41,320 nt of DNA. It comes from a virus. The translations under genes and the position numbers were made by a program. Below are positions 611-41,137 of this stretch, piece by piece (the first letter of the stretch is position 1; the number at the start of each line of letters is the position of its first letter). The notes beneath the pieces are model-generated. The model saw nothing but the letters and a program-made list of their open reading frames with translations, did not search any database and had not been told where the DNA came from. The DNA is taken from the IMG/VR virus record IMGVR_UViG_3300025168_000192, positions 1 to 41,320 of that record; one strand, given 5' to 3'.

Positions 611-3046
611 ATGCCATTATGGGATTCCTTATCAAAAGAAAGTAAAGACCAAAGGATTACAGAACAATCTCTTTGGGAAGAAGAACTACTTGAGGCTGGT
701 GTTGAACGTTATTGGAAAGATTGGGAACGTTCTCCTGATGAAGGTAAGCCAGAGCAATTGTTGTTAGAGTCAGCTGTTATTCACTTGACACCTTACTATC
801 AACAATGGATTGATTCTGTATGTGGGCATCGCAAAAGTCCTGAATGGTTGCCTCCCTTGCTTAGCTTGGGCGCAGCTAAGATGGCAGACATTACTATTAG
901 ATCTGTGATTCAATTATTTCTATCAAGAACTAATGTAGTTAACATAGATTTCTTTCAGGGTATGCCATTGAATGCACCCACTGCACAGCAAGTAAGTAAG
1001 CTCATCTCTGATGATGCCTTAGCTATTGTTATGTATCAACAAGCAAAGAAAAAATTTCGTGATGACTGGATGCGTCAGTCTAAGTTCATTAAGAACTGGA
1101 CACCTAAGAGATGTCGTGCATTCACTGAGAAGATGTTGACTATTCCAAAGTATACTCCTAAACAGAAGGAAGACTTTGGTCACAACATGTTACGTGTTGC
1201 ATTGCAATCCGATATCTTAGATGGTAAAATTATTTGGACTGGCCGTAACAAGAAACGATTGCTTGTATCTTTCTCGCCTGAGGTTCTAAAAGAACTAAGC
1301 TCTAGACATAGGTTACTTGAGACTGGTGGCATGGTGTACAGACCTATGATCTGTCCTCCTATCCCCCACTCTACCAAAGAAGATGGTGGCTTCTTGTCCC
1401 CTTGGATTCGTAAGAAGATGATCAAGAGGTATCATCCTGTTGGTGCTGACCCTAGAGAGTGGAACTCTAAGCCATCTGATATTGTGTTTGATGGTATCAA
1501 TGCACTGATGAAAACTGAGTGGTCTATTAACAGCAAAGTATATGATGTTATGTCTACGATGTTTCTTAATGATCATAAGACCGCTAACCTACCTGCTTAT
1601 TCATCTAAAGACTTTGCGTTCTCTCGTCCTTATCCTGAAGAGGGTACTAAAAGAGAACAAGCAGAATGGATGGCTGATTCTACTGAAGCATGGGGTAGCT
1701 GGTATAAAGATGAACAGTCACGCTCACGTATGTTAGTTCGTTTGTCTTTGGCAAAGAAACTAATCCCTTATGACTTTTTCTTTATGCCCCACACCTTAGA
1801 CTTTAGAGGCAGAGAGTACACGGTATGTGAGTTGTTGTCATGTCAAGGCGTAGATTTTGATAGGGCTATTATTCAATTCGCTGAGCCTATTAAGCAAACA
1901 GAACGTGGTTTGTATTGGCTTAAGGTTCACCTTGCTAACATGTTTGATCAAGATAAGCAGACGTTTGATGAACGGGTACAGTGGGTTGATAATAATATAG
2001 ATATGATTCAAGCTATTGCTGATGACCCTTACTCTAACACTCAGTGGATCTCGGATGCAAAGAAAAAAAATCCAAGCTTCCAACGATTGGCTGCTTGCTT
2101 TGAGATGTGTCGTACTGATGGCATGACCCAGCTACCTGTCCAAAAAGATGGTGCTAACAATGGTGTACAACACTGGTCTGCTATCATGAGAGACAAGAAC
2201 CTAGCTGCACTAACTAATGTATTACCTAGTGATAAGCCTATGGATTTGTATCAGTTTGTAGCTGATAGGTCTCATGAATATATTAAAACAAACACCAATG
2301 ATAACGATTGGTTTGATAAGTTTGGCAAGCATTGGCCTGATAAACTACCTCGTAAGGTTGCTAAACGTAGTACTATGTGTGACTCATATGGCCTTACCTT
2401 CTATGGTATGCAGAAGTATGTTAAAGAAGAAGGTCATGTTGATTGGGTTGCACGAGAAGAAAGAGGCGGCGCTATTGTTGAGCTAGCAAGAGCATTGCAA
2501 CTGGGCTTAGAAGATACAATGACAAGCCCTAATCAAGGTAAAGATTACTTGCGTTCGGTTGCACGTATTGTAAGTGATCGTAACAAACCACTGGTGTGGG
2601 AAACTGGCTCTGGTTTTGTAGTGCAACATGTATATAATCAAGTCATTGAAAGAATTTCATATGCTGAATTGTTTAACAAACAGCAACTTGTGTTCTCTTC
2701 CTTGAGTGAAGAGTTAGATGCTGATGCTCAGTACTTAGCAATCAGTCCTAATTTTATTCACAGTCTTGATGCAGCTCATATGTTTCTAACTATATATGAA
2801 ATGATGCTTGAAGGTATCACATCTTATAGCTTTGTTCATGATTCATATGGTACGTATGGGCCGCACATTGATACAATGGATAGAATACTTAGGGAAACGT
2901 TTATTAAGATTCATTCAACTAATCCATTGAAATCTTTTAAATTATATCTGGAGAATAAGTATGGCTTACAGTTGCCCGAAGTCCCAGAGTGCGAAGGTGA
3001 TTTCAACATCGAAGAAGTCAAGCACTCCAAGTACTTCTTTGCATAA
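611..3046 (+). CDS. T7-like single-subunit DNA-directed RNA polymerase
   Basis: This 811-residue protein is the phage RNA polymerase (T7 gp1 family; T7 has 883 residues), which transcribes phage middle and late genes from phage-specific promoters. Visible motifs are motif A VQKDGANNGVQH with the metal-binding Asp at residue 513, motif B RKVAKRSTMCDSYG with Lys585 and Tyr593, and motif C FVHDSYG with His743 and Asp744. The C-terminus ends in aromatic residues (YFFA), like the T7 'foot'. The start is supported by GGAGAG just upstream, and the thyX stop is immediately adjacent. The N-terminal promoter-recognition region diverges from T7, so the promoter sequence cannot be predicted from homology. 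Confidence 0.97.
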   Translation: MPLWDSLSKESKDQRITEQSLWEEELLEAGVERYWKDWERSPDEGKPEQLLLESAVIHLTPYYQQWIDSVCGHRKSPEWLPPLLSLGAAKMADITIRSVIQLFLSRTNVVNIDFFQGMPLNAPTAQQVSKLISDDALAIVMYQQAKKKFRDDWMRQSKFIKNWTPKRCRAFTEKMLTIPKYTPKQKEDFGHNMLRVALQSDILDGKIIWTGRNKKRLLVSFSPEVLKELSSRHRLLETGGMVYRPMICPPIPHSTKEDGGFLSPWIRKKMIKRYHPVGADPREWNSKPSDIVFDGINALMKTEWSINSKVYDVMSTMFLNDHKTANLPAYSSKDFAFSRPYPEEGTKREQAEWMADSTEAWGSWYKDEQSRSRMLVRLSLAKKLIPYDFFFMPHTLDFRGREYTVCELLSCQGVDFDRAIIQFAEPIKQTERGLYWLKVHLANMFDQDKQTFDERVQWVDNNIDMIQAIADDPYSNTQWISDAKKKNPSFQRLAACFEMCRTDGMTQLPVQKDGANNGVQHWSAIMRDKNLAALTNVLPSDKPMDLYQFVADRSHEYIKTNTNDNDWFDKFGKHWPDKLPRKVAKRSTMCDSYGLTFYGMQKYVKEEGHVDWVAREERGGAIVELARALQLGLEDTMTSPNQGKDYLRSVARIVSDRNKPLVWETGSGFVVQHVYNQVIERISYAELFNKQQLVFSSLSEELDADAQYLAISPNFIHSLDAAHMFLTIYEMMLEGITSYSFVHDSYGTYGPHIDTMDRILRETFIKIHSTNPLKSFKLYLENKYGLQLPEVPECEGDFNIEEVKHSKYFFA

Positions 3047-3083
3047 GACATATACTAAAGCAAAGAAACTCCCAAAGGTTTGT

Positions 3084-3329
3084 ATGATTGAATGGATTGA
3101 TGCACAAACAACAGGTGGTGCTGAGTGGATGGACAAATCTGAAATGATGTCAGCTGCTAAAAGTAAGCTGCCCGTTATGTGTACTGTTGGTTATGTCATA
3201 CATGAAGATGACCATCAATATGCTGTTGTGTCAACGTTAGGTCCAGCTGAAGGATCACAAGTTCACAAAATTCCTAAATGTATGGTACTAAACGTAGAAG
3301 AATATGGCACAAGACAAGAACATTCGTAG
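3084..3329 (+). CDS. Small conserved-type phage protein, unknown function
   Basis: This is an 81-residue protein of unknown function. It resembles short phage proteins with the pattern 'VEW.DA...GW...(K)P.....VGYVIHEDD...VVS', here MIEWIDAQ and VGYVIHEDDHQYAVVS. These look like small beta-rich folds, and I know no function for them. The frame is open upstream to an ATG at 2961, which has GGAG before it. That start would overlap the polymerase C-terminus by 86 bases and add a Ser/Lys-rich low-complexity leader, so I prefer ATG 3084 with AAAGG upstream. The 2961 start remains possible. It lies directly behind the RNA polymerase gene in the same operon. Confidence 0.65.
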   Translation: MIEWIDAQTTGGAEWMDKSEMMSAAKSKLPVMCTVGYVIHEDDHQYAVVSTLGPAEGSQVHKIPKCMVLNVEEYGTRQEHS

Positions 3330-3453
3330 AAAAGACCAGCGTCGTTTTGATCAAGAAGAATATTCCTCTAAGAAAAAACAAAGAGAACTAGACAAAGCGC
3401 GTAAAAAAATACGCAAAGAAAAACGGAGATCAATAGATGAAGAAGTTGAATAA
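3304..3453 (+). CDS. Tiny charged helical protein, unknown
   Basis: This 49-residue ORF starts at ATG 3304 inside the end of the preceding gene and runs to TAA at 3451-3453, overlapping the next ORF. It is almost entirely Lys, Arg, Glu, Asp and Gln, with no Pro or Gly, so it probably forms a single charged helix. No clear SD precedes the start, but GAAG lies about 10 bases upstream. The spacing, with overlaps at both ends, is normal for this genome. I recognise no family, and it could be a chance frame between its neighbours. Confidence 0.5.
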   Translation: MAQDKNIRRKDQRRFDQEEYSSKKKQRELDKARKKIRKEKRRSIDEEVE

Positions 3454-5064: not shown

Positions 5065-5448
5065 ATGCTAGAACTAACCTTTGCGGTTAGTCCCGTAGCA
5101 GCTTCTCGTCCCCGTGTTGGTAGGCATGGCTCCTACTACACGGGGGCGTACAAGCGTTTTAGATCTGAAGCAGGCGAGGTTGTCTTTGATGTATTAGGAG
5201 ACAACTTTGATTTGCTTGAAGGTAAACTTAACGTAGACATTGAATGCTATTGTACTAGACCCAAGACTACTAAACTAGAAGTACCAAAGTCCGACGTAGA
5301 TAATATTGCTAAGGCAGTGTTGGATATTCTAAACGGTAAACTTTGGGTAGACGATTCTCAAATAGTTCGATTGTATATTACTAAACAGTGGGCTGCTGTA
5401 GGCGAACCCGGATATTTTAATCTTCGGGTAGAAAAAACAATTAAATGA
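5065..5448 (+). CDS. RusA-like Holliday junction resolvase
   Basis: This 127-residue protein belongs to the RusA family of Holliday-junction endonucleases. The diagnostic segment runs from Asp77 through Asp79, Asn80, Lys83 and Asp87 to Asp96-Asp97 and Gln99 (SDVDNIAKAVLD, then WVDDSQI). This matches the acidic residues and lysine needed by RusA. The start ATG follows the previous stop without a gap. It occupies the position where T7 carries endonuclease I (gp3), so it probably resolves branched replication intermediates before packaging. That replacement is an inference from gene order. Confidence 0.92.
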   Translation: MLELTFAVSPVAASRPRVGRHGSYYTGAYKRFRSEAGEVVFDVLGDNFDLLEGKLNVDIECYCTRPKTTKLEVPKSDVDNIAKAVLDILNGKLWVDDSQIVRLYITKQWAAVGEPGYFNLRVEKTIK

Positions 5449-5807
5449 ATATAAATAAACTTGAAGCACTTGCTCTATCATACCTACCTATGGTACAACA
5501 CAGAAGTAAGAGGCATGTATCTATTATAGTTCACAAGAACAGACCAGTATCTGTTGGTGTTAACAAAACTAAGACACATCCCCAAGCTCATACGTATCAG
5601 TATAGGTTTGATGAGGTGCATTCTGAATTGGATGCATGGCTTAAAGTTAAAAACAAATCTAAAAACTATAAGTTAATTAACTTTAGATTTGGTCATCAGA
5701 ATGAATGGAGAATGGCACGGCCATGCACTTTGTGTATGCCGTGGTGCAAGCAAATCTTTAAAGAGATTTATTATACAACCCACAAGGGTTTGATTAGGGA
5801 AGTCTAG
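5445..5807 (+). CDS. Deaminase-like zinc protein (cytidine deaminase fold)
   Basis: This 120-residue protein carries the zinc signature of the cytidine deaminase superfamily: HSELDA (His59, Glu61) and, 33 residues later, PCTLC (Pro93, Cys94, Cys97). The proton-shuttling Glu and all three zinc ligands are present, so catalysis is plausible. The substrate is unknown; a nucleoside, a nucleotide or a base in nucleic acid are all possible. It is shorter than standard dCMP deaminases, and the rest of the sequence is basic. The ATG overlaps the RusA stop (ATGA). The stop codon lies within the terminator stem that ends the operon. Confidence 0.82.
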   Translation: MNINKLEALALSYLPMVQHRSKRHVSIIVHKNRPVSVGVNKTKTHPQAHTYQYRFDEVHSELDAWLKVKNKSKNYKLINFRFGHQNEWRMARPCTLCMPWCKQIFKEIYYTTHKGLIREV

Positions 5808-5851: not shown

Positions 5852-6205
5852 ATGGAAACGTATACTGAACACATTGTAGATAATAGTCTTGATGCGGAGA
5901 GTTATTTTGTAGCTAAGGTATCAGCAACATGGAGTTGGTCTGATAGTGGGGTGGGTTACTATGAATTCTGGGGTACTCCAGGCAACCATCAAGAGTGGGG
6001 CTGGGAGTATGAAGGGTATTTTGTTGAAGAAATTTCTATCTTTAACAATGAAGAAGAGTTGGTGCTTAGTCTGGTTCATGATAAAGAAAAGATTGTACCT
6101 GAACATAAGGATATTTGGAATGCAGTTAATGATATGGTTTGCGAAGAGATGGAAACTCTTGAGCCACCTGATGAACATCCAGAAGAAGAGTACGACGAAC
6201 TCTAA
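5852..6205 (+). CDS. Very acidic small protein, unknown
   Basis: This 117-residue protein has 31 Asp/Glu and only 4 Lys with no Arg, a net charge near -27. It is Trp- and Tyr-rich in the middle (WSWSDSGVGYYEFWG) and ends in a Glu/Asp tail. Its start has a good SD (AAAGGGA). It is the first gene after the strong terminator. Length and charge are close to those of T7 Ocr, a DNA-mimic inhibitor of type I restriction, but I see no sequence similarity and no proof of that role. The Trp-rich half could also be a small beta domain of other function. Confidence 0.75.
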   Translation: METYTEHIVDNSLDAESYFVAKVSATWSWSDSGVGYYEFWGTPGNHQEWGWEYEGYFVEEISIFNNEEELVLSLVHDKEKIVPEHKDIWNAVNDMVCEEMETLEPPDEHPEEEYDEL

Positions 6206-6326
6206 AGAACCTAGGCTATGCCCCGGATGTGGTGACCCTGCTGGTGAATGCCCTAACCAATCTTGTGTTAGGGATGACTGGCCCCACCCTGCTTTGTGTG
6301 ATTACAGGGGCAACCCTATTGATTAG
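6171..6326 (+). CDS. Tiny Cys-rich zinc-ribbon-like protein, tentative
   Basis: This is a 51-residue ORF starting at ATG 6171 inside the end of the acidic protein gene. After a short basic leader it contains CPGCG, then CPNQSC about seven residues on, plus one more Cys and several His, which could bind zinc. GAGCC precedes the start weakly. The TAG stop shares its G with the first base of the tRNA-Arg gene. The Cys pattern is what makes this frame credible, and there is no family match I can name. Confidence 0.45.
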   Translation: MNIQKKSTTNSKEPRLCPGCGDPAGECPNQSCVRDDWPHPALCDYRGNPID

Positions 6327-6399
6327 CTCCGATAGCTCAGCTGGATAGAGCAGCTGACTTCTAATCAGCAGGTCGCAGGTTCGAGTCCTGCTCGGAGTG
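6326..6399 (+). tRNA. tRNA-Arg (anticodon TCT)
   Basis: The cloverleaf is complete. The acceptor GCTCCGA pairs with TCGGAGT, the D stem is GCTC/GAGC, the anticodon stem GCTGA/TCAGC holds loop CTTCTAA with anticodon TCT, and the T arm is GCAGG-TTCGAGT-CCTGC. The discriminator base is G at 6399, and CCA is not encoded. It reads AGA (and AGG), which the AT-rich genome uses often. Confidence 0.96.
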
Positions 6400-6402
6400 C
6401 TT

Positions 6403-6475
6403 GGTCCCATAGCTCAGTTGGTAGAGCATCGGACTTTTAATCCGTTGGTCGCTGGTTCAAGTCCAGCTGGGATCA
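6403..6475 (+). tRNA. tRNA-Lys (anticodon TTT)
   Basis: The acceptor GGTCCCA pairs with TGGGATC. The D stem is GCTC/GAGC, the anticodon stem TCGGA/TCCGT (outermost T-T mismatch) holds loop CTTTTAA with anticodon TTT, and the T arm is GCTGG-TTCAAGT-CCAGC. The discriminator is A, and CCA is not encoded. It lies three bases behind tRNA-Arg, so the two are probably processed from one transcript. Confidence 0.96.
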
Positions 6476-6489
6476 TTGAAAGGAAACGT

Positions 6490-7023
6490 ATGGACCCTTA
6501 TAATTTAAGAGATGAGCTGTTAAAGGTTCATCAAGAACTAGCAAAGAGAAATAATGCTAGTACTAATGCTGTTATTGTTGCTGCTCAAGTTGGTAAAGAT
6601 TTCTTTACTGCTGTAGCATCAGCGTTGCTTACGCTTGGAGAAACACATGCTCCTCTAAGACAGACAGCTAGATTTTTAACACACCCTGATCCAGTAGACT
6701 ATGCAGATAGATTGTATGTTGCTGGATTAAAGATACCCGGATGGGGTAGTGCCTTTGTCAAAGAAGATCATGACCCTGCATTTGATCGTATTAAAAATAT
6801 ACTAGAAGAAAACTATAGCCATGTATATAGCTTGATAGATGATGTAACATATTACCTTCACTATAAAGGAACAGATATCTATCCTAATGCTGCTTGTTAT
6901 ACAACTGCTGTGTTGATTGCTCTTGGTCTTGACTTAAGGTTTGGACCTCAGCTTTTAATCAATGGTCGTATTGGCTGGTGGCAAGCTGTGTACCTAGATA
7001 ATTATAGTCCCGGTCCTGCTTAG
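6490..7023 (+). CDS. Citrate-synthase-like protein, short and probably catalytically altered
   Basis: This 177-residue protein can be aligned by eye with the catalytic portion of citrate synthase (about 380-430 residues). Landmarks in order are NNAST at 21-25 (family NAST), LGETH ending at His53 (family GPAHGG histidine), IPGWGSAFVK at 82-91 (family GFGHRVYK), DP at 95-96 (family DPR), IYPNAACY at 130-137 (family LYPNVDFY), and GRIGWWQAVY at 159-168 (family R..GWIAHW). The second catalytic His is Ser87 and the catalytic Asp is Ala135, so ordinary citrate synthesis is unlikely. Upstream in-frame codons to 6397 are tRNA sequence; ATG 6490 with AAAGGAAA before it is the start. It sits between tRNA genes. 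The assignment rests on motif order only. Confidence 0.6.
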   Translation: MDPYNLRDELLKVHQELAKRNNASTNAVIVAAQVGKDFFTAVASALLTLGETHAPLRQTARFLTHPDPVDYADRLYVAGLKIPGWGSAFVKEDHDPAFDRIKNILEENYSHVYSLIDDVTYYLHYKGTDIYPNAACYTTAVLIALGLDLRFGPQLLINGRIGWWQAVYLDNYSPGPA

Positions 7024-7028
7024 TAGTT

Positions 7029-7102
7029 GGGGTTGTAGCCCAATTGGCAGAGGCAGTGGACTTAAAATCCATACAGTGCGGGTTCGAGTCCCGCCAACCC
7101 TA
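7029..7102 (+). tRNA. tRNA-Leu (anticodon TAA) with short variable region
   Basis: The acceptor GGGGTTG pairs with CAACCCT. The D arm is a weak GCC/GGC stem, the anticodon stem GTGGA/TCCAT holds loop CTTAAAA with anticodon TAA, and the T arm is GCGGG-TTCGAGT-CCCGC. The discriminator is A at 7102. The variable region is only five bases (ACAGT), whereas bacterial tRNA-Leu normally has a long variable arm. Identity as Leu rests on the anticodon. It would read TTA. Confidence 0.88.
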
Positions 7103-7116
7103 TTAAGGAGATTATT

Positions 7117-12784: not shown

Positions 12785-13213
12785 TTGAAAATTAAAAAAC
12801 TATTTGAAGACGCTGTTGTTCCGTATGCAGCCACAGATGGTGCAGCTGGTCTTGACCTAAGTGCGTACACTAATAATGTACTTATTGTGGAGCCACACAC
12901 CTATGAGGTGGTCAAAACAGGCATGGCAGTCGAGATTCCTGAAGATCATTTCGGTTTACTATGCCCAAGAAGTGGGCTTGGTAAAGCAGGAATCACCTTG
13001 GCAAACACTATTGGTATTATCGATAGTGATTATCGAGGCGAGATTGGAGTCCTTATTAAAAACAATAACGACTTTCCTTTTATTATTAATCATGGTATGC
13101 GTGTAGCTCAGCTATTAATTATTCCTTATTTCTCTCCCAAGATTGAAGTAGTAGAAGAATTACAAGAGACTGCTCGTGGAGCTGGCGGCTTTGGATCAAC
13201 AGGAGTTGAATGA
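12785..13213 (+). CDS. dut: dUTPase (dUTP diphosphatase), TTG start
   Basis: This is a 142-residue trimeric-type dUTPase, which hydrolyses dUTP to dUMP, keeping uracil out of DNA and feeding ThyX. All five motifs are present: DGAAGLDLSA, PRSGLG, GIIDSDYRGEI, MRVAQLLI and the C-terminal RGAGGFGSTG. The frame opens with TTG at 12773, but GGAG at 12775-12778 lies six bases before a second TTG at 12785, which gives the usual MKIKKL start. The stop overlaps the start of the ribonucleotide reductase gene. Confidence 0.95.
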   Translation: MKIKKLFEDAVVPYAATDGAAGLDLSAYTNNVLIVEPHTYEVVKTGMAVEIPEDHFGLLCPRSGLGKAGITLANTIGIIDSDYRGEIGVLIKNNNDFPFIINHGMRVAQLLIIPYFSPKIEVVEELQETARGAGGFGSTGVE

Positions 13214-15105
13214 TGTCTAAGATTTTTCAAGATTTTGTAGCGATTTCGCGTTATTGTAGATGGATGCCTAGTGAGGGGCGGAGAGAGACATGGGAAGAGG
13301 CAGTAGATAGATACATTAACTATCTAATTACCCGTCTTAATATTAAATGCCCCGAACGATTAAAGGAATTGGAAAGATGCTCTGTTGCTATGAAAAACAG
13401 GACATTGTTTGGTTCCATGCGGGCGTTGATGACAGCAGGGCCAGCCCTAGATGTAGATGATGTAGCTTCATACAACTGTTCTTATGTCTCAGTCGAAAGA
13501 CCCTCTGACTTTAGAAACATTATGTATGTCCTTATGTGTGGTACAGGTGTGGGCTTTTCTTGTGAAGCACAGTTTGTTAACAAGCTTCCTGAGATCCCCG
13601 CAGAAATTAATAAAACAGATGACGTTATTGTTGTTGAAGACTCAAGAGCAGGATGGGCAGATGCGTTTCATAAATTTATTCATGGACTTTACAGTGGCTA
13701 TCACAGCACTATTGATGCTAGCCGTGTTCGCTCTGCTGGGACTAGACTTAAAACGTTTGGTGGTAGGGCTTCTGGTCCAGAGCCACTCGAACGACTCATC
13801 AGATTCACAGCTAACATGTTCTACAAAGCCAAGGGACGCAAGCTAAAGTCTCTTGAGGTACATGATCTAGTTTGTCAGATTGCAGAGATTGTTATTTGTG
13901 GTGGCGTTCGTCGATCCGCATTGATTTCTCTTAGTGATCTAGGTGATAGAGAGATGGGTATGTGCAAGTCAGGTGCTTGGTGGGACACAGCAGGACATCG
14001 TAGCCTAGCTAATAACTCCGCAGTGTATGAGACAAAGCCTAGCTTTAGTGAGTACATTCAAGAGTGGTCAGCATTATATGATTCACACTCAGGTGAGCGA
14101 GGCATTTGCAATCGTGAGGCTATGGAAAAGATTGCTAGACTTGCTGGTCGTAGGGTTGAAGGACATAGTTTTGGTACTAACCCATGCTCTGAAATTATCC
14201 TACGGTCTAAACAGTTCTGTAACCTGTCTACTATTGTAGCTAAAAATGAAGATGGAGTTGGTGATATCTTAGAAAAGACACACCTTGCTACTGTCTTAGG
14301 TACATTACAATCTGCACTAACTAACTTTACATTCTTTGAAGAACGTGGAGACTATACGTTCCGTGATAATTGTAATGAAGAAAGATTATTAGGCGTTTCT
14401 ATTACAGGTATCATGGATGCTCATGCACTATGGAATGATAAGCTACTACGAGAGATGAAGTCTGTAGCTCACGATACTAATAGTGAGTGGGCTGAGTATC
14501 TTGGTATCAATCCTAGCTCTAGCATTACATGTGTCAAGCCAGAAGGTACAACCAGCTGCGTTGCTGGTTCTGCATCTGGTATGCACCCACGATTCTCTGA
14601 GTTTTACATTCGTAGAGTTCGTCTTGATACAAAGGATCCTATTGGTCAGCTCATGAAAGATGCTGGCGTACCGTGGGAACCATGTGTTATGCGACCAGAA
14701 AATACTTTAGTGTTTTCATTCCCCATTGCATCACCTGCAAACGCACTAACGCAAGATGATATTTCTGCAATGGACCACTTAAATTGGTGGAAAGATTTCC
14801 AAATTAATTATTGTGATCATAAACCTAGCATCACTGTTAGTTACACAGACGATGAGTTCTTAGGTGTTGGTCAATGGGTTTGGAAAAACTGGGATATTGT
14901 ATCAGGCATTTCTTTCCTTCCAAAGGAAGATCATGTATATCAACAGGCTCCGTTTGAAGCCATCGATGAAGTGACGTGGGCTACAATGATGGATGAAATG
15001 CCTAAGGAAGTTGATTGGGATCTTCTTTCTAAATACGAATTAGAAGATGAAACAAAGCACACCCACACTCTTAGCTGTTCAGCTGGTGGTTGTGAAATTA
15101 CTTAG
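13210..15105 (+). CDS. Class II (adenosylcobalamin-dependent) ribonucleotide reductase
   Basis: This 631-residue enzyme looks like the monomeric class II reductase of Lactobacillus leichmannii (739 residues), which reduces ribonucleoside triphosphates using vitamin B12 coenzyme. Asn324, Cys326 and Glu328 (NPCSE) match the radical site. Cys337, eleven residues on, and Cys90 match the substrate-reducing cysteine pair. CVKPEGTTS and the C-terminal CSAGGC (Cys623, Cys628, three residues from the end) match the re-reduction tail. ATG 13210 overlaps the dUTPase stop; the adjacent ATG 13213 has better spacing from GGAG. It needs cobalamin from the host and an external reductant; no thioredoxin gene is visible here. 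Confidence 0.95.
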   Translation: MMSKIFQDFVAISRYCRWMPSEGRRETWEEAVDRYINYLITRLNIKCPERLKELERCSVAMKNRTLFGSMRALMTAGPALDVDDVASYNCSYVSVERPSDFRNIMYVLMCGTGVGFSCEAQFVNKLPEIPAEINKTDDVIVVEDSRAGWADAFHKFIHGLYSGYHSTIDASRVRSAGTRLKTFGGRASGPEPLERLIRFTANMFYKAKGRKLKSLEVHDLVCQIAEIVICGGVRRSALISLSDLGDREMGMCKSGAWWDTAGHRSLANNSAVYETKPSFSEYIQEWSALYDSHSGERGICNREAMEKIARLAGRRVEGHSFGTNPCSEIILRSKQFCNLSTIVAKNEDGVGDILEKTHLATVLGTLQSALTNFTFFEERGDYTFRDNCNEERLLGVSITGIMDAHALWNDKLLREMKSVAHDTNSEWAEYLGINPSSSITCVKPEGTTSCVAGSASGMHPRFSEFYIRRVRLDTKDPIGQLMKDAGVPWEPCVMRPENTLVFSFPIASPANALTQDDISAMDHLNWWKDFQINYCDHKPSITVSYTDDEFLGVGQWVWKNWDIVSGISFLPKEDHVYQQAPFEAIDEVTWATMMDEMPKEVDWDLLSKYELEDETKHTHTLSCSAGGCEIT

Positions 15106-26237: not shown

Positions 26238-29200
26238 ATGACAGACTGGATTAGATCTCCTGATTATAAATGGTTTATGAATGCTAAATGGGTAGCTTAT
26301 GCTTTTGAAAACGCAAAAAATAATTCTACTCAATGGAATTCTTATTACGGTATTTATGGTGAACGTTTTAATATGGCGGGCATTAAAGATATAACTAACC
26401 CCAATTACAAAAGAGGATCTGTATCTGGTACCTGTAGTATTTGTGACCTTGTCGGGCGTTGTGGTATGTCAGCTGGTTTAAAAAATATTGCTTGTGAGAT
26501 GGCACAACAACAATGTGATAATGCAAGATGTCCAGATGAAGACTGTTGGGCTATATGTTTTGAATGGGATTGTGATGAGAATCTTAACGTCTTCCCTGAT
26601 GAGTGGTTTACAAGTGGTTGTAGTAGCCCTTCTTTTGAACTGCCTTGTGAAATGGGATGCCCTCCTCCACCCTCCGACGATTGTCGAATCACCCTTTGTG
26701 GTCTTAATTTCTGTCAATGCGATCCAGTTGCAAACCCGGATGGATGCCCTGACCCATCGGATTGTTCGTTTTGTCTTGGTAGAGACGGGTCATTAGTCCC
26801 TTGTTTAGGAGATGACGGAGAAGATAATCCTGAGGCAGTATGTAATCCCTGTAATGGTGGCTGTGATGACGTAGTTGCCTGCCCCTGTGGGCCTACTGGA
26901 TGTGAGCTTCAAATGGGAGGGGCTTGCCCCCCTGTTTGTTGTGTACCCGGAGAATCAGAATGCTGTCCTTGTGGTGATTACTGGGCACCCTGTGGCATGT
27001 GCTGTGATCCCACTGTAGAAGACTGTGGAGGCTGTAGTCCCTATGGTTACCCAGCCCCAGCCTCTTACTGTCGTAGCTGTGAACATTGCAACAATGATCC
27101 AACACAACCTCAGTGTTCACCAGATCCAACCCCAGATACACCACATGGTTGTTGCCTATGTGATATTAATAATACATGGTATCCTTGTAATATAGAAGAC
27201 TACTGCACTCCACCAGAGTGTGATGATTTTTCTTCTAATTGTTATGCTTGCGGCGACAAAAGAATTCCAATCTGGTTTGATTGTGAAGAAGTAAATCCGT
27301 GTGCTAATCCCTATGACCCAGATTGTAATCAAACAGGAGACCCTATTGTGTGCTACGAATATAACACAAACGACCCAATTTATTATAATGCATCTAACTT
27401 AGGTGCTACAGTTATTATTGAGTATGATAACCCCGTTACAGGCGGAGCTGGATACTCTTACGGAAACGTAGCTACACTGTGTGAAGTCCCTGACCAATTA
27501 CAGCTGTGCGTTTTTCTAAAAACTTCCGGTGGTTCAGAAACTAAACTGACCTACGAAACAGACTATACTTTAGCAAACGAAAAAGTAATTTTAAATAGTT
27601 CAGTAAACACTAGTGGCTTTACAAAGCTATTGCTTAAAAGATGTACAGACGATTCTAAAATGTTTGTTACCTTTAAAGACGGAGCTAAGTTAGGTGCTGA
27701 TGATGTTAATGCTTCTATGCACCAGCTATTATTCTTGATCCAAGAAAAAGAATTTGCAGCTAACTCATATACTCAGGTATTAAATGCAGCTACTACTAAA
27801 GCGTCTATTGATTTCTTTTTAGAATCTACAAAAATTAAGGCAACTGCTATTAATGCATTGAACACCGATGGTGTCTATGCCGCTGGACTTGATGAGTCTA
27901 TTAGCTTTGTTATCCCTGCTGCTCAAGGTGGTCAAGGTACTACTACTATTACTCTTGACAAAGACAAGGGTAGTAATGCTAGTGGAGCAGCTAACACAAT
28001 TGTTATTGGTACAATTGGAGCAGCCTCAGCTACAGCCTTGACTTGCGCTGCTGGTACAACGGCTCATGGGCTTACTGAAAAGCAGCACCTTACTCTAACA
28101 TCTACAGATGGTACAGCTAAAAGATATGTTATTACAGATACTGCTAACGGTGGCGTAGCTACAACAACTGTGCTTAGTGACAGTAGTAACACTGATACAG
28201 GTACAGGAACTGCGGGTGCTGCTGAAGATGGTGGTATTGCTGTTGGCTTAAACTTAAGTAGTGCTACTCAACATGATGTACTAACACAGTTTAAGGTAGC
28301 TATCGAACATGCTAACGGACACAATGGTAAGATTACTGTAGCTGCTGTTCCTTCAACAGGTGGCGCTGGCTTAAGCGTTGCTCTTACCCAAGCTACTGCT
28401 GGCCTTGATGGCAACAAAACTGTAACAGAGGACTTAGCTACTACAATTAACTGTGCTAGCTTCAGTGGTGGTGGTCTTACCGATACTGCTGTAAGAGATC
28501 TTCTTGTTAAAGCAATTAACGGAACCCTTGATGGGGTTATTAAAGATGCTACCTCAGGTAACGGAACTAATGGTATCCAAAACGTTACTGCAAGTGCTTC
28601 TAGTACTACCCAGATTACTCTAGAAATGGACAAAGCTGGTACTATTGGTAATATTACTAGTGCTGTAGCTGATGCAGATGGCACTACAGGAGATGAGCTT
28701 GTCGCAGTCACAGCGTTTACTGGAGGTAAAGACTTTACTTCTACAGAGTTTGATGCCTTTACTTTCCAACTAACAGCGTATGAATCTAGTGGAACTACAA
28801 CAAAGACATATGTATTTGATGATGATAATAACGGAGCAACAGGAACAACTGATGGCTCTGGTCACGTTCGTATTCAACTTCATAACCTTACATCAATGGC
28901 CGAACTTTCTACTGCTATTGAAGCTGCTATTGCTAATGCTAATGGGCATGGTTCTAAATTTACTACACAACGAGCAACATATGATCCGTATGGTAACACT
29001 GATGTTACCTACAATAGACTTGTTGTCAAACAAAGTGTAGCAGGAGTAGTTGGTAACTTACAAAACCTAACACATAGTGCAGAGCTTAACGCTAGGATGA
29101 ACGCTAATGGTGCTGGTCAAGCTAATACAGCATGGAACTTTACTGGTGGGCAGGACAATGACGCTTCAGATCCTATCATCACCTTTGATCCTCCAACATC

Positions 29201-31481
29201 ATTGCCTGTTAACTTTGATTTAAGTGCCGTGCAAGTAAACAGTGTCTTATCATGGGATGGTACTGGTGGGTTTATTGGTTCTTCGCCTACGCAAATCGTA
29301 CAGCAAGTTCCTGTAGGCAATCACTCAGACATTAGTCTAGGTACTGTATCAACAGGTGACTTCTTATTGTTTGATGGTACTAACTGGACTGACAGGAACC
29401 TAGAGACCGAAGTTAAGGCTATTACTAATGTCTTTGACTTTACTGACTGGGTTAGTTATAGTTTAGGCTCAGATTCTACGTTAGATAACTACTATCTTTC
29501 TGATTGCGATGGTCTTGTCCAAACCGAGTGGTCTAATGCTGGCACTTGTATTACTAATCTTGATAAGAAACTAGTGCCTAATGCCATTACTTCGTTTGGT
29601 ATTGGTTATTATGCAGCAGCTGCACAGATTAAAGCACAAACAATTGATGCAACCAGTGACCTAGTAACTAAAATTACTGAACAAGTAAACAGTGTTACTA
29701 GTGGTGGTGCTATACACGCTTCCTTGCGATGGGAATTAAGCAGAGCAGAAGGTAGAAGCGGAACTGGATTATCTGCTTACCCAATATCTTACTTTGATAT
29801 TAGAGACTTTGATTATCTAGATCATGCAGAAGGCACGTCCTCTGCTGGGGAACTAGACGGAGATAATACTCCTAACTCAACTACAACTAATACAGCTTAT
29901 TATAGAAACTGGCAAAGCATTAGTGGTGATTCTAATAATACACATAAGAACAAGTTGTTTATTAATAACATCAAGAGCTTTGTGTTTGACCCAGAAAAAT
30001 CTAGGTGTTCTGGCTTTGGTCCTCACTGTATTGATACAAACTGTAATGGTAATATCTTAACAGGAACTCCTCAGAATAAACCTTCAGAAGATAGGTACTT
30101 AAATTCTATTAGAAGAGTGATTAATAAAACTGATTGGGATACTGCTCTTAACTATGGTTATGCAAGCTCACATCCACTTAAGGATTATCCAAACGCTACT
30201 AATAGTAGCTCAACTCCTACTGTAAAATCATACTTAGACTTTACTAATGAGCTTATCTATCCTATGTATACTTATAATACTCTTAAGCAAACCGACAAAG
30301 AAGCTGCTGGTAGTACATCAGAAACAACAAATGGTTGGGTATGGAAGTCAACTAAAAACGTTCCTCTTGTTGTGACTTACTACTTGTCTCACTTATGGGG
30401 CAATGGCGTAGGTGCAGCAGAACCAAGTCTATTACAATGGGATGGTAACATTGATGCACTTGGTGATATGGATTTAATGACAGATAATACTAATCCATAC
30501 AATTCTTCTACTCATGGTGGCGTAACCTATGCTACCAAGACACAAGAAACATTCCTTGGAGCAACAGGAAACAATTGGTTCTATTGGAAGTGGTTGATTC
30601 TTGGTAAGGATACTACAGCTGACAGTAATGGTAGTGCCAATGATTCTACAAAGTATAATGAACTGTCACACTTTAATCCATTTAATAAAGCTCACCTTGC
30701 ATTAGATAGTGACAATAAATATTCGCTACTTCCTGCTGATGGTGAAGATGCTTCTGGTTTCTCTGCTACTAAAGAAGCTTCAAGAGATTCTGCCTATTCG
30801 TATTTGATTCCGGCTAACCAAGTATTTAGTAATCTAGCTAATGTTCTTCCTGATCTAAAGGATGAGTATGTCTTTAGTGTACGCTTTAGAACTCCTAAGG
30901 TCTCAACACTTGACTGCCCTGACGCAAGTTGCTATCAAGTTAGAGCTGTTATTGAAAAATTCATTGACGGTTCAGCAAACTCAGGTGATACTAGGTCTAC
31001 TAAAGTTGGCAGTGCATCAAGTGAAAATAACGGACACCATATTTATCCTGAAGACTTTGATGCTAATGTAGTTAAGGTATGGGAATCATATCCTTATGAG
31101 GATTTAGATATTGAGATTAGATCTAAGACCGGAGATGGTTTTGATCTAGTGCTTAGTGTTCCTAGGCTTAAACGAATTGGTGTAGTTGATTTATATGCTG
31201 ATGAATTTGATGGTCCTGACTTTGACTACAGGCATCAAGCACTTAGCTGGCTAGCTGATTATGTTGCAACTGACTTTGATGGTGCAGCTACAGTCAGACA
31301 GCCTGATGGCACTAGTGACACTGCTAATGACCCTGCCCAGTTGCAGGCTCTTAAGACAGACAGTATTGCAGCTGTGAGCGTTGAGACAGCAATCCAATTC
31401 GTTAGGTTGGGTATCCCATCTAGCGTTAGGGTTGAGTTCTCAGTTACTGATACCCCACAAAAACGTGTCTTCTCAACATAA
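26238..31481 (+). CDS. Giant tail fibre/adhesin-like protein with Cys-dense N-terminal part
   Basis: This is a 1747-residue tail protein. Residues 66-372 contain 53 cysteines (about 17%) with many CC and CxxC pairs. Residues of about 395-510 resemble the tail-attachment domain of T7 gp17 (LLLKRCTDDSKMFVTF, then FKDGAKLGADDVNA). Residues of about 555-975 hold three degenerate Gly/Thr-rich repeats, each ending F(S/T)GG. The rest is a long beta-rich region with fewer Cys. SD AGAGGTGA precedes ATG 26238. It very likely forms part of the host-recognition apparatus. The Cys-rich segment has no counterpart I know; it may be disulfide- or metal-stabilised. Base composition matches the neighbours. Confidence 0.82.
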   Translation: MTDWIRSPDYKWFMNAKWVAYAFENAKNNSTQWNSYYGIYGERFNMAGIKDITNPNYKRGSVSGTCSICDLVGRCGMSAGLKNIACEMAQQQCDNARCPDEDCWAICFEWDCDENLNVFPDEWFTSGCSSPSFELPCEMGCPPPPSDDCRITLCGLNFCQCDPVANPDGCPDPSDCSFCLGRDGSLVPCLGDDGEDNPEAVCNPCNGGCDDVVACPCGPTGCELQMGGACPPVCCVPGESECCPCGDYWAPCGMCCDPTVEDCGGCSPYGYPAPASYCRSCEHCNNDPTQPQCSPDPTPDTPHGCCLCDINNTWYPCNIEDYCTPPECDDFSSNCYACGDKRIPIWFDCEEVNPCANPYDPDCNQTGDPIVCYEYNTNDPIYYNASNLGATVIIEYDNPVTGGAGYSYGNVATLCEVPDQLQLCVFLKTSGGSETKLTYETDYTLANEKVILNSSVNTSGFTKLLLKRCTDDSKMFVTFKDGAKLGADDVNASMHQLLFLIQEKEFAANSYTQVLNAATTKASIDFFLESTKIKATAINALNTDGVYAAGLDESISFVIPAAQGGQGTTTITLDKDKGSNASGAANTIVIGTIGAASATALTCAAGTTAHGLTEKQHLTLTSTDGTAKRYVITDTANGGVATTTVLSDSSNTDTGTGTAGAAEDGGIAVGLNLSSATQHDVLTQFKVAIEHANGHNGKITVAAVPSTGGAGLSVALTQATAGLDGNKTVTEDLATTINCASFSGGGLTDTAVRDLLVKAINGTLDGVIKDATSGNGTNGIQNVTASASSTTQITLEMDKAGTIGNITSAVADADGTTGDELVAVTAFTGGKDFTSTEFDAFTFQLTAYESSGTTTKTYVFDDDNNGATGTTDGSGHVRIQLHNLTSMAELSTAIEAAIANANGHGSKFTTQRATYDPYGNTDVTYNRLVVKQSVAGVVGNLQNLTHSAELNARMNANGAGQANTAWNFTGGQDNDASDPIITFDPPTSLPVNFDLSAVQVNSVLSWDGTGGFIGSSPTQIVQQVPVGNHSDISLGTVSTGDFLLFDGTNWTDRNLETEVKAITNVFDFTDWVSYSLGSDSTLDNYYLSDCDGLVQTEWSNAGTCITNLDKKLVPNAITSFGIGYYAAAAQIKAQTIDATSDLVTKITEQVNSVTSGGAIHASLRWELSRAEGRSGTGLSAYPISYFDIRDFDYLDHAEGTSSAGELDGDNTPNSTTTNTAYYRNWQSISGDSNNTHKNKLFINNIKSFVFDPEKSRCSGFGPHCIDTNCNGNILTGTPQNKPSEDRYLNSIRRVINKTDWDTALNYGYASSHPLKDYPNATNSSSTPTVKSYLDFTNELIYPMYTYNTLKQTDKEAAGSTSETTNGWVWKSTKNVPLVVTYYLSHLWGNGVGAAEPSLLQWDGNIDALGDMDLMTDNTNPYNSSTHGGVTYATKTQETFLGATGNNWFYWKWLILGKDTTADSNGSANDSTKYNELSHFNPFNKAHLALDSDNKYSLLPADGEDASGFSATKEASRDSAYSYLIPANQVFSNLANVLPDLKDEYVFSVRFRTPKVSTLDCPDASCYQVRAVIEKFIDGSANSGDTRSTKVGSASSENNGHHIYPEDFDANVVKVWESYPYEDLDIEIRSKTGDGFDLVLSVPRLKRIGVVDLYADEFDGPDFDYRHQALSWLADYVATDFDGAATVRQPDGTSDTANDPAQLQALKTDSIAAVSVETAIQFVRLGIPSSVRVEFSVTDTPQKRVFST

Positions 31482-33368: not shown

Positions 33369-34562
33369 ATGGCACAGAATATTGATTTAATTGAAATTGT
33401 TTCAGCAGCCAGCGGTGGCTGTGGTTGTTCAGCCGGTGATTTTGCTGGGGACTTTATTGCTAAGACTGAAGGTACATTCATTACCTCCTTAAGTTCTACT
33501 GGTGGAAAATCTACTTGGGCTTACAGTGGAGACACTGCAACATTTACCTTAGGTACGTTATCTTCTACAGATGTAGCAACACTTACAGTTCAAGGGTCTA
33601 CTGATGCAGACGCTATTATATATGTAAAAAGTAATGATGGTTCTGCTACAACTATTACCCCTACTGCTATTGCTTGCGAGACATTAGCTATTTCTGGTGC
33701 TGCACTCACAGGTGCTTTAACTGTATCAGGAAACCTAGAACCTACTTCAAACTCAACAGATGGAAGTGATGGATTATATCTAGGTGCTACTAATAAAAAA
33801 TGGAGAAAAATTTGGACTAGGGATTTAGAAGTAGAAGGTGTGTTTACTGTAGCTAACTTAACTTTATCAGGAAACCTTGTAGTCAATGGAGACACTACTT
33901 TAGGTAATGCAGCAAGTGATACTATTCTTGTTACAGGTACAGCTGAGTTTACACAATCAGCCGAGTTTAATGGTGGTATTAACTGCGATGGTACACTAGC
34001 TATGGAAAGTAATGCTGTATCAGCTACAAACTGGGGCATTGCTTCCAACGGTAATGTTACTACATCAGGAACAGTAATTAGCTCAAGTGAAACTGCGTCT
34101 AACTTTCAAAAGCTTATTGTAAATGATGCACCAACTTCAAACAAACACGCAGTTAGAAAAACAGATGTTGATTTAGATACAGACGGTACATTTCAAATGG
34201 CTAGCGTTGTAGTTTCTGGTGGGTTTATTACTGGGGTGTCTGCAACCACAGTGGCTAACATGTTAGATCACGCAGAGCCAAACCATGCTACCACTAGGAT
34301 TGATGGTACATCCCCTTCTAGTGGCAATGAGTCTGATGCCATTCATCCTTACATGGTAGGCGCTGTTGATAGAGAAAAACCTGTAGTAAAAGGCCAATTA
34401 GCTTTAACTTATAATGGAAACAATGGCTCTAATGATAACTATAGATACCCCGGAGAAACAAACGCACAGTCTGCACCGTATTTCAAAGTGATTGAAGCCA
34501 CTGCAAATCCCGCAGATGAGTCCGGTCCTCCTAATCAAATTATTTTTAGAAAGAGGACGTAA
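33369..34562 (+). CDS. Fibre-like structural protein, beta-rich
   Basis: This 397-residue protein opens with a short helix and a SGGCGCSAG knot, then runs as Thr/Ser/Gly-rich beta repeats (TLSGNLVVNGDTTLG) typical of phage fibre shafts. It includes a GSDGLYLGATNKKWRKIWTRD segment of the 'nc.GsLG...rW...wt' type found in fibres with repeated blades. AAGGAG lies before ATG 33369, and its stop overlaps the next ATG (TAATG). It is probably a fibre subunit that assembles with the two neighbours. Confidence 0.75.
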   Translation: MAQNIDLIEIVSAASGGCGCSAGDFAGDFIAKTEGTFITSLSSTGGKSTWAYSGDTATFTLGTLSSTDVATLTVQGSTDADAIIYVKSNDGSATTITPTAIACETLAISGAALTGALTVSGNLEPTSNSTDGSDGLYLGATNKKWRKIWTRDLEVEGVFTVANLTLSGNLVVNGDTTLGNAASDTILVTGTAEFTQSAEFNGGINCDGTLAMESNAVSATNWGIASNGNVTTSGTVISSSETASNFQKLIVNDAPTSNKHAVRKTDVDLDTDGTFQMASVVVSGGFITGVSATTVANMLDHAEPNHATTRIDGTSPSSGNESDAIHPYMVGAVDREKPVVKGQLALTYNGNNGSNDNYRYPGETNAQSAPYFKVIEATANPADESGPPNQIIFRKRT

Positions 34563-38358: not shown

Positions 38359-40011
38359 ATGATTCCAACTGAAGAGGTCTTAAATGATTTTCGTAATCAT
38401 GTATATTTTTGTATGAAGTATCTGGGACTAGGCGAACCAACCCCAATGCAATATGAGATTGCAAGACAGCTTCAAGAGGGACCAAATGATCTTATCTTGG
38501 CAGCTGGCCGTGGTACGGGTAAATCTACCCTCACGGCTATGTTTGCCTCTTGGTTTATGCTGGTTAATCCAGACAAAACCGTGCTTGTCCTATCAGCAAC
38601 TCAACAGAAAGCTATTGAGTTTGTATCTCAGACCAGAAAGATCCTTAGTGTTGTACCTTATTGCAACCACATGATCCCTAATGAGCATACTAAAGACTCA
38701 GCTCTTGGTTTTAATCACAATGTAAGGACAACCTTTACTCAGGACATGTCTTGTACAGCTCGTGGCTCTACGTCACAGATTACAGGGCTGCACTCTGATC
38801 TAGTTATTTGTGATGATGTAGAAATCTCTACCAATACACAAACTGTTGAAGCAAGAGAGAATCTTTTGCATAAGTTGACAGAGTTAGAGTCCGTAAGAAA
38901 CAAGGGATCTAGGGTTTTGTTCTTAGGTACACCTCACTCTGCTGAATCTATCTACACAACATTAAAATCATCCTATCCTATTGTAAAATACCCAGCTATG
39001 ATGCCGGATATTTCTCTTCCGGGTGAGGCTGAAGGCATTGCTGATTGGATTTGGGAATTAAACTTTGAAGCAGGCGAATCTACACAGCCTGAACGGTTTG
39101 ATAAAGAAATGTTATTAGAAAGAAAAGCTAAGATTGGTCCAAAAGCATTTGCTTTGCAGTACATGCTAGACACTACCCTGTCTGACACAGATAAATACCC
39201 ATTAAAGCTATCTGATCTTGTAGTAATAGATGTAGATGTTAGCTCAGCACCTGAAAAAATTGTATGGCAAGGGCAAAACTCTAATAAAAAGATGCCTAGC
39301 TGGGGATTATCAGGTGATATGATCATGGAACCTATGTTTGTTTCTCAAGAATACTTAGATTATCAGCATAGACATATGGTTATTGACCCATCAGGCCGTG
39401 GTGCAGACGAAACAGCTGTATGTGTAGCCTCTTCAGCGGGTGGTATGATCTATATTCACGAGCTAACAGGGTGGGACGGTGGTTACAGTGACGTAACGCT
39501 TAATAAGATTGCTAAAATGTGCGTTGAGTACAACATCAATCTTGTACGCATTGAATCTAACTTTGGTGATGGTCTTTTCTCTAAAGTTATTACACCTATA
39601 TTACTAGAAACCTGTGGCAGAGTAGGCATTGAGGAGTTCAGAGTAACAGGACGCAAAGAAACTAGAATGCTTTCTACGCTAGAGCCTGTGATGGCTCAGC
39701 ATCGCCTTTGTTGGGACCGTCGTGTAGCTAAAGATGAGAAGAACCAAATGCAATTGACACGCCTTACAGACCTAAGAGGATGCCTTAAGCATGACGATAG
39801 GGTTGATGCATTGGCTTCAGCAGTAGAGTTCTATAAAGATCTTATGGTACTAAGTACTGATAAGGCGGTTGAGATGCGGAAGCAAAGTAACTGGGAAGAA
39901 GAAGTTAAAGAATGGGCTAATGATTTTAGGGCAGGTAATTATGTATCACACAGTGGTGCAATAAAAGAAACCCCTAAGAAAAAATCTAAACGTAATCAGT
40001 GGGGGTGGTAA
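38359..40011 (+). CDS. Terminase large subunit, T7 gp19-like
   Basis: This 550-residue protein (T7 gp19: 586) drives DNA packaging. The ATPase domain shows Walker A GRGTGKST (Lys55), followed by the typical VLVLSATQQKA segment, and Walker B VICDDVE (about residue 150). The nuclease domain begins at MVIDPSGRGADETA (about 340), with its metal-binding Asp, and later HDDRVDALA (motif with two Asp). SD AGGTGA lies before ATG 38359. It works with the small subunit encoded just upstream and the portal. Confidence 0.95.
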   Translation: MIPTEEVLNDFRNHVYFCMKYLGLGEPTPMQYEIARQLQEGPNDLILAAGRGTGKSTLTAMFASWFMLVNPDKTVLVLSATQQKAIEFVSQTRKILSVVPYCNHMIPNEHTKDSALGFNHNVRTTFTQDMSCTARGSTSQITGLHSDLVICDDVEISTNTQTVEARENLLHKLTELESVRNKGSRVLFLGTPHSAESIYTTLKSSYPIVKYPAMMPDISLPGEAEGIADWIWELNFEAGESTQPERFDKEMLLERKAKIGPKAFALQYMLDTTLSDTDKYPLKLSDLVVIDVDVSSAPEKIVWQGQNSNKKMPSWGLSGDMIMEPMFVSQEYLDYQHRHMVIDPSGRGADETAVCVASSAGGMIYIHELTGWDGGYSDVTLNKIAKMCVEYNINLVRIESNFGDGLFSKVITPILLETCGRVGIEEFRVTGRKETRMLSTLEPVMAQHRLCWDRRVAKDEKNQMQLTRLTDLRGCLKHDDRVDALASAVEFYKDLMVLSTDKAVEMRKQSNWEEEVKEWANDFRAGNYVSHSGAIKETPKKKSKRNQWGW

Positions 40012-40514
40012 TGATTGGTATAACAGGCATTGGACCTAGGGTAGGTACTTCTTATATTCTTCAAGAAGCCATTAAACAAAATATCCCTATTGCAGCAGAC
40101 AATAAATTTATTCCGTGGATACATGTAGAAGAACAAAATCCTGCTGGGTATTGGGAAGTAGATCCGTTGGAAGTAAACAACGGCATTCATACGGACAAAT
40201 ACAAAGGGCGTTTATTAAAGCTATGGAGTCATGTATTATTACAAACACCATCGCATTTAGTTAAAAGAGTATTGTTTATTGAAAGAAAAAACAAGAAAGC
40301 ACAGAGAGAAAGCATTTTGCGTACACTAGCATTAGAAGAAGAACAGCTTGGTGTCAAAACAAATTTAACTGCCGACTCTGTACTACAAGAGCATACATTA
40401 AATATTTTTAATTGGCTTAAAACAAAACCATCTTCTGCAATTAAAATTGTATACACAGAAGAACTAACAGAAAGATTAGATGAGATATTTAATTTTATAA
40501 AAGGAGAAGATTAA
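40011..40514 (+). CDS. Sulfotransferase-like protein
   Basis: This 167-residue protein shows the layout of small sulfotransferase-type proteins. The P-loop-like PAPS-binding loop ITGIGPRVGTSY (Gly6 to Tyr15) corresponds to '(v)sGlPRSGTS'. N43PAGYWEVDP then matches the 'NP.GYfE' motif, and RVLFIERKNKKAQRES at about 86-101 matches the region with the PAPS-phosphate contact. A late KIVYTEEL with a Phe-rich end matches 'v.Y.dl......ifnFl'. The match is by motif order only. The ATG shares its A with the terminase stop. Acceptor and role are unknown; DNA, lipid, polysaccharide or small molecules are possible. Confidence 0.55.
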   Translation: MIGITGIGPRVGTSYILQEAIKQNIPIAADNKFIPWIHVEEQNPAGYWEVDPLEVNNGIHTDKYKGRLLKLWSHVLLQTPSHLVKRVLFIERKNKKAQRESILRTLALEEEQLGVKTNLTADSVLQEHTLNIFNWLKTKPSSAIKIVYTEELTERLDEIFNFIKGED

Positions 40515-41137
40515 TGGGTATTTTAGCAGGATTAGCTGTAGCAGGTGTTGCCTCTGGAGTTATGTCAGGTATTGCTGGTTCAAATGCAGCAGCCGCTCGT
40601 AACAGAGCTAACACACAGGCTTGGATGGAGGGCGAATTACAAAAAGGCGTAGAGAACGGAAGACAAATGTTCCAAGCTGTCCACCAAGAGATGAAGCAAG
40701 CTGAACGCAATCGTGCTATTATGAAATCAGCCTATCTGTTCCAAGATGAATCACTTGTAGCATTACAAAAGCAAACAAGATTTCAAAACAATGCTCTTAA
40801 TAGATCTACCATGCAAGCAAAAGGTGCTATCACAGCTAACATGGCAGGCGGAGGCACACAAAAAGCTATGCTTATGTCATCAACTCTTAATGCTTTAGAC
40901 AACACAATGCAGATCGAAGAGAACGAACGACAGTCTATAAGAAATATTAGCCGACAAACATCTTCCATGATGTCACGTATGACTAATAATGTATTTATTC
41001 CAAATCAAATGGGTTCGGCTGCTAAACCTCAGATGGAAGATACCGTAATGCCACTTATTGGTGGTGTTGTTAGTGGCGCAGCTCAAGGGCTGGGTGGATA
41101 TACAGCAGGCGTAAGCGCAGGTCTAGGCCCAGCGTAA
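40514..41137 (+). CDS. Internal virion protein, T7 gp14-like
   Basis: This 207-residue protein (T7 gp14: 196) opens with an Ala/Gly-rich hydrophobic helix (ILAGLAVAGVASGVMSGIAGSNAAAARN) and continues with a long Gln/Met/Asn-rich helical body, ending in a Gly-rich tail. This is the character of the small internal core protein ejected into the host membrane during infection. Start is coupled to the previous stop (TAATG). Its position after the terminase differs from T7, where gp14 precedes the fibre gene. Confidence 0.78.
   Translation: MGILAGLAVAGVASGVMSGIAGSNAAAARNRANTQAWMEGELQKGVENGRQMFQAVHQEMKQAERNRAIMKSAYLFQDESLVALQKQTRFQNNALNRSTMQAKGAITANMAGGGTQKAMLMSSTLNALDNTMQIEENERQSIRNISRQTSSMMSRMTNNVFIPNQMGSAAKPQMEDTVMPLIGGVVSGAAQGLGGYTAGVSAGLGPA

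Follow-up and report, generated by a model that had tools for sequence, protein, structure and literature searches.

A small phage protein family with the citrate synthase fold, replaced catalytic residues and a sulfotransferase-like companion

The window, i.e., the whole stretch of 41,320 nt that was analysed (IMG/VR record IMGVR_UViG_3300025168_000192), is a T7-like phage record. Between tRNA-Lys and tRNA-Leu it carries a gene for a citrate-synthase-like protein (CSL) within an accessory tRNA island, which is flanked by genes for a RusA-like endonuclease and a primase-helicase. The features of this locus are:

6326..6400, + strand: tRNA-Arg(TCT) (ARAGORN), upstream edge of the accessory tRNA island holding CSL
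6402..6476, + strand: tRNA-Lys(TTT) (ARAGORN), 13 bases 5′ of CSL
6490..7023, + strand: CSL, 177 aa citrate-synthase-like protein, C-terminal half of the fold (PF00285, AlphaFold2, family of 23 lineages)
6646..6648, + strand: codon of His53 (equivalent to GltA His264), kept in 23/23 lineages
6733..6762, + strand: IPGWGSAFVK loop, which corresponds to GFGHRVYK (CoA-adenine loop), with Ser87 in place of the catalytic His305 (N/S/G in the family)
6883..6894, + strand: PNAA motif, catalytic Asp362 replaced by Ala135 (A/S/G in the family)
6967..6969, + strand: codon of Arg160 (equivalent to GltA Arg387), kept in 23/23 lineages
7028..7103, + strand: tRNA-Leu(TAA) (ARAGORN), 4 bases 3′ of CSL

The reading frame of CSL (6490-7023) starts with ATG, and AAAGGAAACGT lies directly upstream. 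A 208 aa ORF proposed by the ORF lister was rejected as the CSL gene, since it passes through tRNA-Lys. The gene was found again at 98-100% identity in two further IMG/VR contigs and is therefore no assembly artefact of the window record. Near relatives of the window phage with the same flanking genes do not carry CSL. Two small genes 5′ of the tRNA island (5852-6205 and 5445-5807) have no Pfam match, and the gene at 5445-5807 is kept in relatives lacking CSL.

A sequence-only reading of this DNA had described a short citrate-synthase-like phage protein, and both profile searches and structure prediction confirmed this description. CSL matched Pfam family PF00285 with an E value of 1.1e-8 and 35 bits (cut-off 27) over profile positions 183-343 of 357, and the same family was matched by 7/7 diverse CSL members. 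Sequence searches of Pfam, NCBIfam and the PDB with CSL led to citrate synthase or citryl-CoA lyase, covering the C-terminal half only, and the profile comparison with 2-methylcitrate synthase 6s6f gave an E value of 2e-15. With an HMM built exclusively from cellular citrate synthases and citryl-CoA lyase, CSL reached 44 bits versus 9.0 bits for the best shuffled sequence (1,198 scored of 2,000 made), and a chance resemblance was rejected on these grounds. The AlphaFold2 model of CSL, calculated with 37 family members as input, had a pLDDT of 93.7. Superposition on citrate synthase 2p2w of T. maritima gave Z 18.3 and 2.5 Å over 172 of the 177 residues; for the citryl-CoA lyase core of human ATP-citrate lyase, Z was 17.9. 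Judged by profiles and modelled fold, CSL is a member of the citrate synthase superfamily (PF00285 fold), and it is best explained as a small protein that descends from the C-terminal half of citrate synthase/citryl-CoA lyase and occurs in phages only.

To map individual residues, 23 CSL lineages were aligned to E. coli GltA. The alignment gave the equivalences that had been claimed from the sequence, with His53 at the position of His264, Ser87 at that of His305 and Ala135 at that of Asp362. His264, the first catalytic His, is retained in 23/23 lineages, and the other two residues of the functional triad are replaced in all of them (Asn in 12, Ser in nine and Gly in two at His305; Ala in 14, Ser in eight and Gly in one at Asp362). 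The view that two of three catalytic residues are missing was thus correct for Ser87 and Ala135, but the losses are wider: the oxaloacetate ligands H229 and R314 are also replaced in all 23 lineages, and the R407′ tail region is absent from every one. A third oxaloacetate ligand, R387, is retained throughout. The CoA-adenine loop PG[WF]G is fixed in 23/23 lineages and Lys309 is kept in 22/23 (R in one lineage), so that the loop and lysine of citrate-synthase-type CoA binding are present at the sequence level. No variation is seen at Asp312 or Pro359-Asn360, and the CSL family has two new invariant residues of its own, Pro55 and Phe89.

In citrate synthase, the adenine of CoA is contacted by the backbone of the adenine loop, and the thioester carbonyl lies opposite His264. 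Since this loop and His264 are kept while oxaloacetate ligands are replaced, we infer that CSL lost the oxaloacetate side and retained the CoA side. The CoA residues that the N-terminal half of citrate synthase contributes are missing, which argues against CoA binding. The residue map supports the view that CSL is unable to catalyse the citrate synthase reaction in its known form, and to this extent the earlier suggestion of a non-working enzyme was right.

Comparison with known enzymes leads to the same picture. CSL resembles the C-terminal fold of citrate synthase and 2-methylcitrate synthase (E. coli GltA, PrpC; 2p2w, 6s6f) and has His264, Arg387, the adenine loop and the PN motif in common with GltA. 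It differs in its length of about 180 aa, compared to about 370-430 aa for the full two-domain chain, in the absence of the N-terminal half and the R407′ tail, and in the replacement of H305, D362, R314 and H229. The C-terminal module of citryl-CoA lyase/ATP-citrate lyase (6hxp, 6hxl) is similar in fold (Z 17.0-17.9) and represents a shortened form of it; like CSL, 6hxp has the Pro of PGxG. However, citryl-CoA lyases have a catalytic His and Asp in about 260 aa, and 6hxp retains both in a chain of 268 residues, while CSL lacks both and is shorter.

The homologue search in other phages yielded well over 150 CSL relatives in IMG/VR, which form 23 lineages at 70% identity with representatives of 174-194 aa. 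The alignment search reported 154 matches, of which the best 80 were used, and extra motifs brought in the clade of the window and other lineages. A DNA pattern for PG[FW]GN[ST]FFK was present in 39 IMG/VR stretches, and 39/39 encode a CSL relative. Among 50,697 phage records (isolates) the window CSL had no match at E ≤ 0.01; two other members matched only annotated prpC genes in host-like records, and citrate synthase queries mostly retrieved host-DNA-like records or short unannotated gut contigs. PHROGs contained no family for any of seven CSL members (E ≤ 0.01), BFVD gave no match (E ≤ 0.001), and none was found on the plasmids searched. A motif search of 84,980 prokaryote genomes (GTDB) gave 73 matches, none of them homologous; the motif covers 13/23 lineages, and absence from these genomes holds for those 13. 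In the literature library searched, no paper on these proteins was found. CSL is an established phage protein and represents an undescribed family that is conserved across many uncultured phages.

Comparison of the window CSL with its relative from L002 resulted in a dN/dS of 0.06. Other CSL pairs with dS under 1 showed values of about 0.10-0.23, and the median was 0.075 in the largest clade (109 members). Considering the low dN/dS and the intact frames, pseudogene decay was rejected. As judged from these substitution patterns, CSL is a rewired, functional phage family under strong purifying selection, and the replaced catalytic residues appear as a fixed family signature and not as decay in a single phage.

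Strong purifying selection is also what would be expected of an active small enzyme with a new CoA-thioester chemistry (e.g., hydrolysis, transfer or Claisen-type) that works independently of other phage proteins. His53, Arg160, Asp95 and Asn133 are invariant and Lys91 is kept in 22/23 lineages; together with the new invariants Pro55 and Phe89, these residues suggest an active site that is fixed but different. Nevertheless, no general base is seen at the old Asp position (A/S/G), and such an enzyme would leave the constant company of the sulfotransferase-like protein described below unexplained, so that we regard it as unlikely. Still less probable is a regulatory, non-catalytic role in which CSL would mimic the surface of citrate synthase. 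A precedent for function without catalysis in an alphaproteobacterium is the moonlighting citrate synthase CitA of Caulobacter, whose control of the cell cycle does not depend on its enzyme activity (PMC7083601). CSL appears to have lost catalysis, but CitA is a full-length cellular enzyme with neither a phage nor a sulfotransferase-like partner. The conservation of CSL is found mostly at active-site motifs and not on the outer surface. We consider a regulator of this kind very unlikely.

Two further genes of the window may bear on the function of CSL:

39999..40514, + strand: STL, small P-loop sulfotransferase-like protein (ITGIGPRVGTSY)
40514..41137, + strand: probable internal virion protein similar to T7 gp14 (weak; E 0.024 to the PHROG internal virion protein)

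STL was matched with an E value of 3.1e-22 by a profile that itself included the window STL. The gp14-like gene lies directly 3′ of STL, as it does in relatives. The AlphaFold2 model of the window STL, starting at a downstream ATG at 40011, had a pLDDT of 90.8. Foldseek ranked PAP-bound sulfotransferases first, with a weak E value of 8e-4, while VIA-align gave nucleotide kinases a higher score (Z 11.1) than sulfotransferases (Z 9.1), so that STL is no more than a candidate sulfotransferase. Sulfotransfer_3 scored above its cut-off in one of ten STLs (28.2 versus 27 bits) and below it in four others; most STL sequences contain a loop of the PR-x-[RG]-T type and an R-x7/8-S stretch.

Late-type CSL genes are positioned between tail genes and the gp14-like internal virion gene. 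In 13/13 late lineages with flanks STL is located within 700 bp of CSL on the same strand, upstream in five and downstream in eight, and it adjoins CSL at 91/91 loci of the largest clade. The early-type clade, which includes the window, forms one branch (100/99) nested among the late-type lineages. On early-type long contigs STL was present elsewhere in 9/11 with CSL versus 7/29 RNAP-matched contigs lacking CSL (Fisher p 0.0025), a comparison in which the profile, trained on STLs of CSL-positive phages, is biased towards finding STL in CSL-positive contigs, and in which the 11 contigs represent fewer independent lineages than contigs.

The position of late-type CSL in all late lineages would fit a structural role as a virion or scaffold component, and citrate synthases can form higher-order assemblies; PDB titles name Sierpinski triangles for Synechococcus. 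However, the whole early clade including the window has CSL in the tRNA region among DNA-metabolism genes, and near relatives lack CSL altogether, a loss that would be intolerable for a needed structural part. A structural role is therefore highly improbable.

From the side of STL, 80 loci were inspected, and CSL was present in eight and absent in 72. An obligate CSL-STL pair was rejected on this basis; CSL is one of the companions that STL may have. A shared insertion hot spot may explain part of the adjacency. A hot spot could also account for all of it, with CSL having an unrelated accessory function, and the slot is indeed without CSL in 72/80 loci and also takes hydroxylases. This explanation appears rather doubtful in view of the 13/13 adjacency in both gene orders and of the early-type CSL phages, in which STL is found elsewhere at a higher frequency than in matched controls.

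A PF05118 hydroxylase stands beside STL in 13/80 STL loci and never together with CSL, but the mutual exclusion is suggestive only (Fisher p 0.34). STL and aspartyl/asparaginyl hydroxylase (PF05118) form a second kind of pair that merits its own study. Small STL genes often occupy the tail/gp14-like internal virion slot (STL loci L271-L350). On contig L124 a gene directly 5′ of CSL and STL (2897-3364) has a GNAT acetyltransferase match (PF00583, 0.0051) below cut-off; three consecutive small genes of possible CoA/PAPS type are found there.

The 3′-phospho-ADP moiety is common to CoA and to PAPS, the donor of sulfotransferases. The conserved residues are best fitted by a repurposed protein that would keep the CoA-facing part of the fold. 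We propose, with a probability of roughly 0.45, that CSL binds CoA or a related 3′-phospho-ADP ligand and that CSL and STL jointly modify a molecule of the phage or the host; this figure and the likelihoods that we express for the rival explanations overlap and are not required to sum to one. CSL would still bind CoA, acyl-CoA or another 3′-phospho-ADP nucleotide and serve STL as CoA-side-binding partner in a late modification cassette. CSL, aspartyl hydroxylase and perhaps acetyltransferase may be interchangeable small modification proteins that are made around virion assembly and directed to a phage or host molecule. For the clade of the window, a single relocation is proposed that took CSL out of the late STL slot and into the early tRNA island; STL would have kept its place by the internal virion gene. 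The broader view, that a virus-specific, rewired citrate-synthase-fold family and its sulfotransferase-like partner carry out a new CoA/PAPS-linked modification during infection, is put forward tentatively and is rather less certain.

The sequence-only reading had favoured an action on the host TCA cycle, as decoy, inhibitor or repurposed CoA-binding protein. The CoA-facing residues appear to be kept, so repurposing stands, but the neighbourhood ties CSL to STL, and nothing was found that ties it to the TCA cycle. A decoy would pair with subunits of host citrate synthase or trap acetyl-CoA and thereby slow the cycle in the infected host; the fold shared with the host enzyme and the lost catalytic residues are in agreement with this. 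In citrate synthase, however, helices F and G of the dimer interface belong to the N-terminal half, which CSL does not have. No TCA-cycle genes were recognised in the CSL neighbourhoods read, the companion genes encode modification-type proteins, and late placement by virion genes is odd timing for metabolic inhibition. We consider a decoy or inhibitor quite unlikely.

Viromics pipelines based on Pfam/KEGG are likely to call CSL 'citrate synthase' and to list it among the auxiliary metabolic genes of the TCA cycle. From its residues, this label is wrong for the whole CSL family. A viral 'gltA' auxiliary metabolic gene is reported for Lake Baikal viromes (PMC8066274); its likeness to CSL is a citrate-synthase annotation on a viral scaffold, and it may be either a full enzyme or a CSL. 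If the link between CSL and STL holds, viruses would have cut down and rewired a central metabolic fold, and phages would have a small group of late modification cassettes, in which a sulfotransferase-like protein is combined with citrate-synthase-like, hydroxylase or acetyltransferase partners.

A near-identical 51-kb contig (L003, IMGVR_UViG_3300001450_000053) continues for about 22 kb upstream of where the window starts, and lengths of 62-70 kb are reached by RNAP relatives of the window phage. The window is therefore probably an incomplete genome. It also encodes a ThyX thymidylate synthase (53-607) and a probable B12-dependent ribonucleotide reductase (13210-15102). Two very large late proteins of 1747 and 891 aa (26238-31481 and 34562-37237) are cysteine-rich in stretches, including a long N-terminal stretch in the 1747 aa protein, which is unusual for phage tail or fibre proteins.
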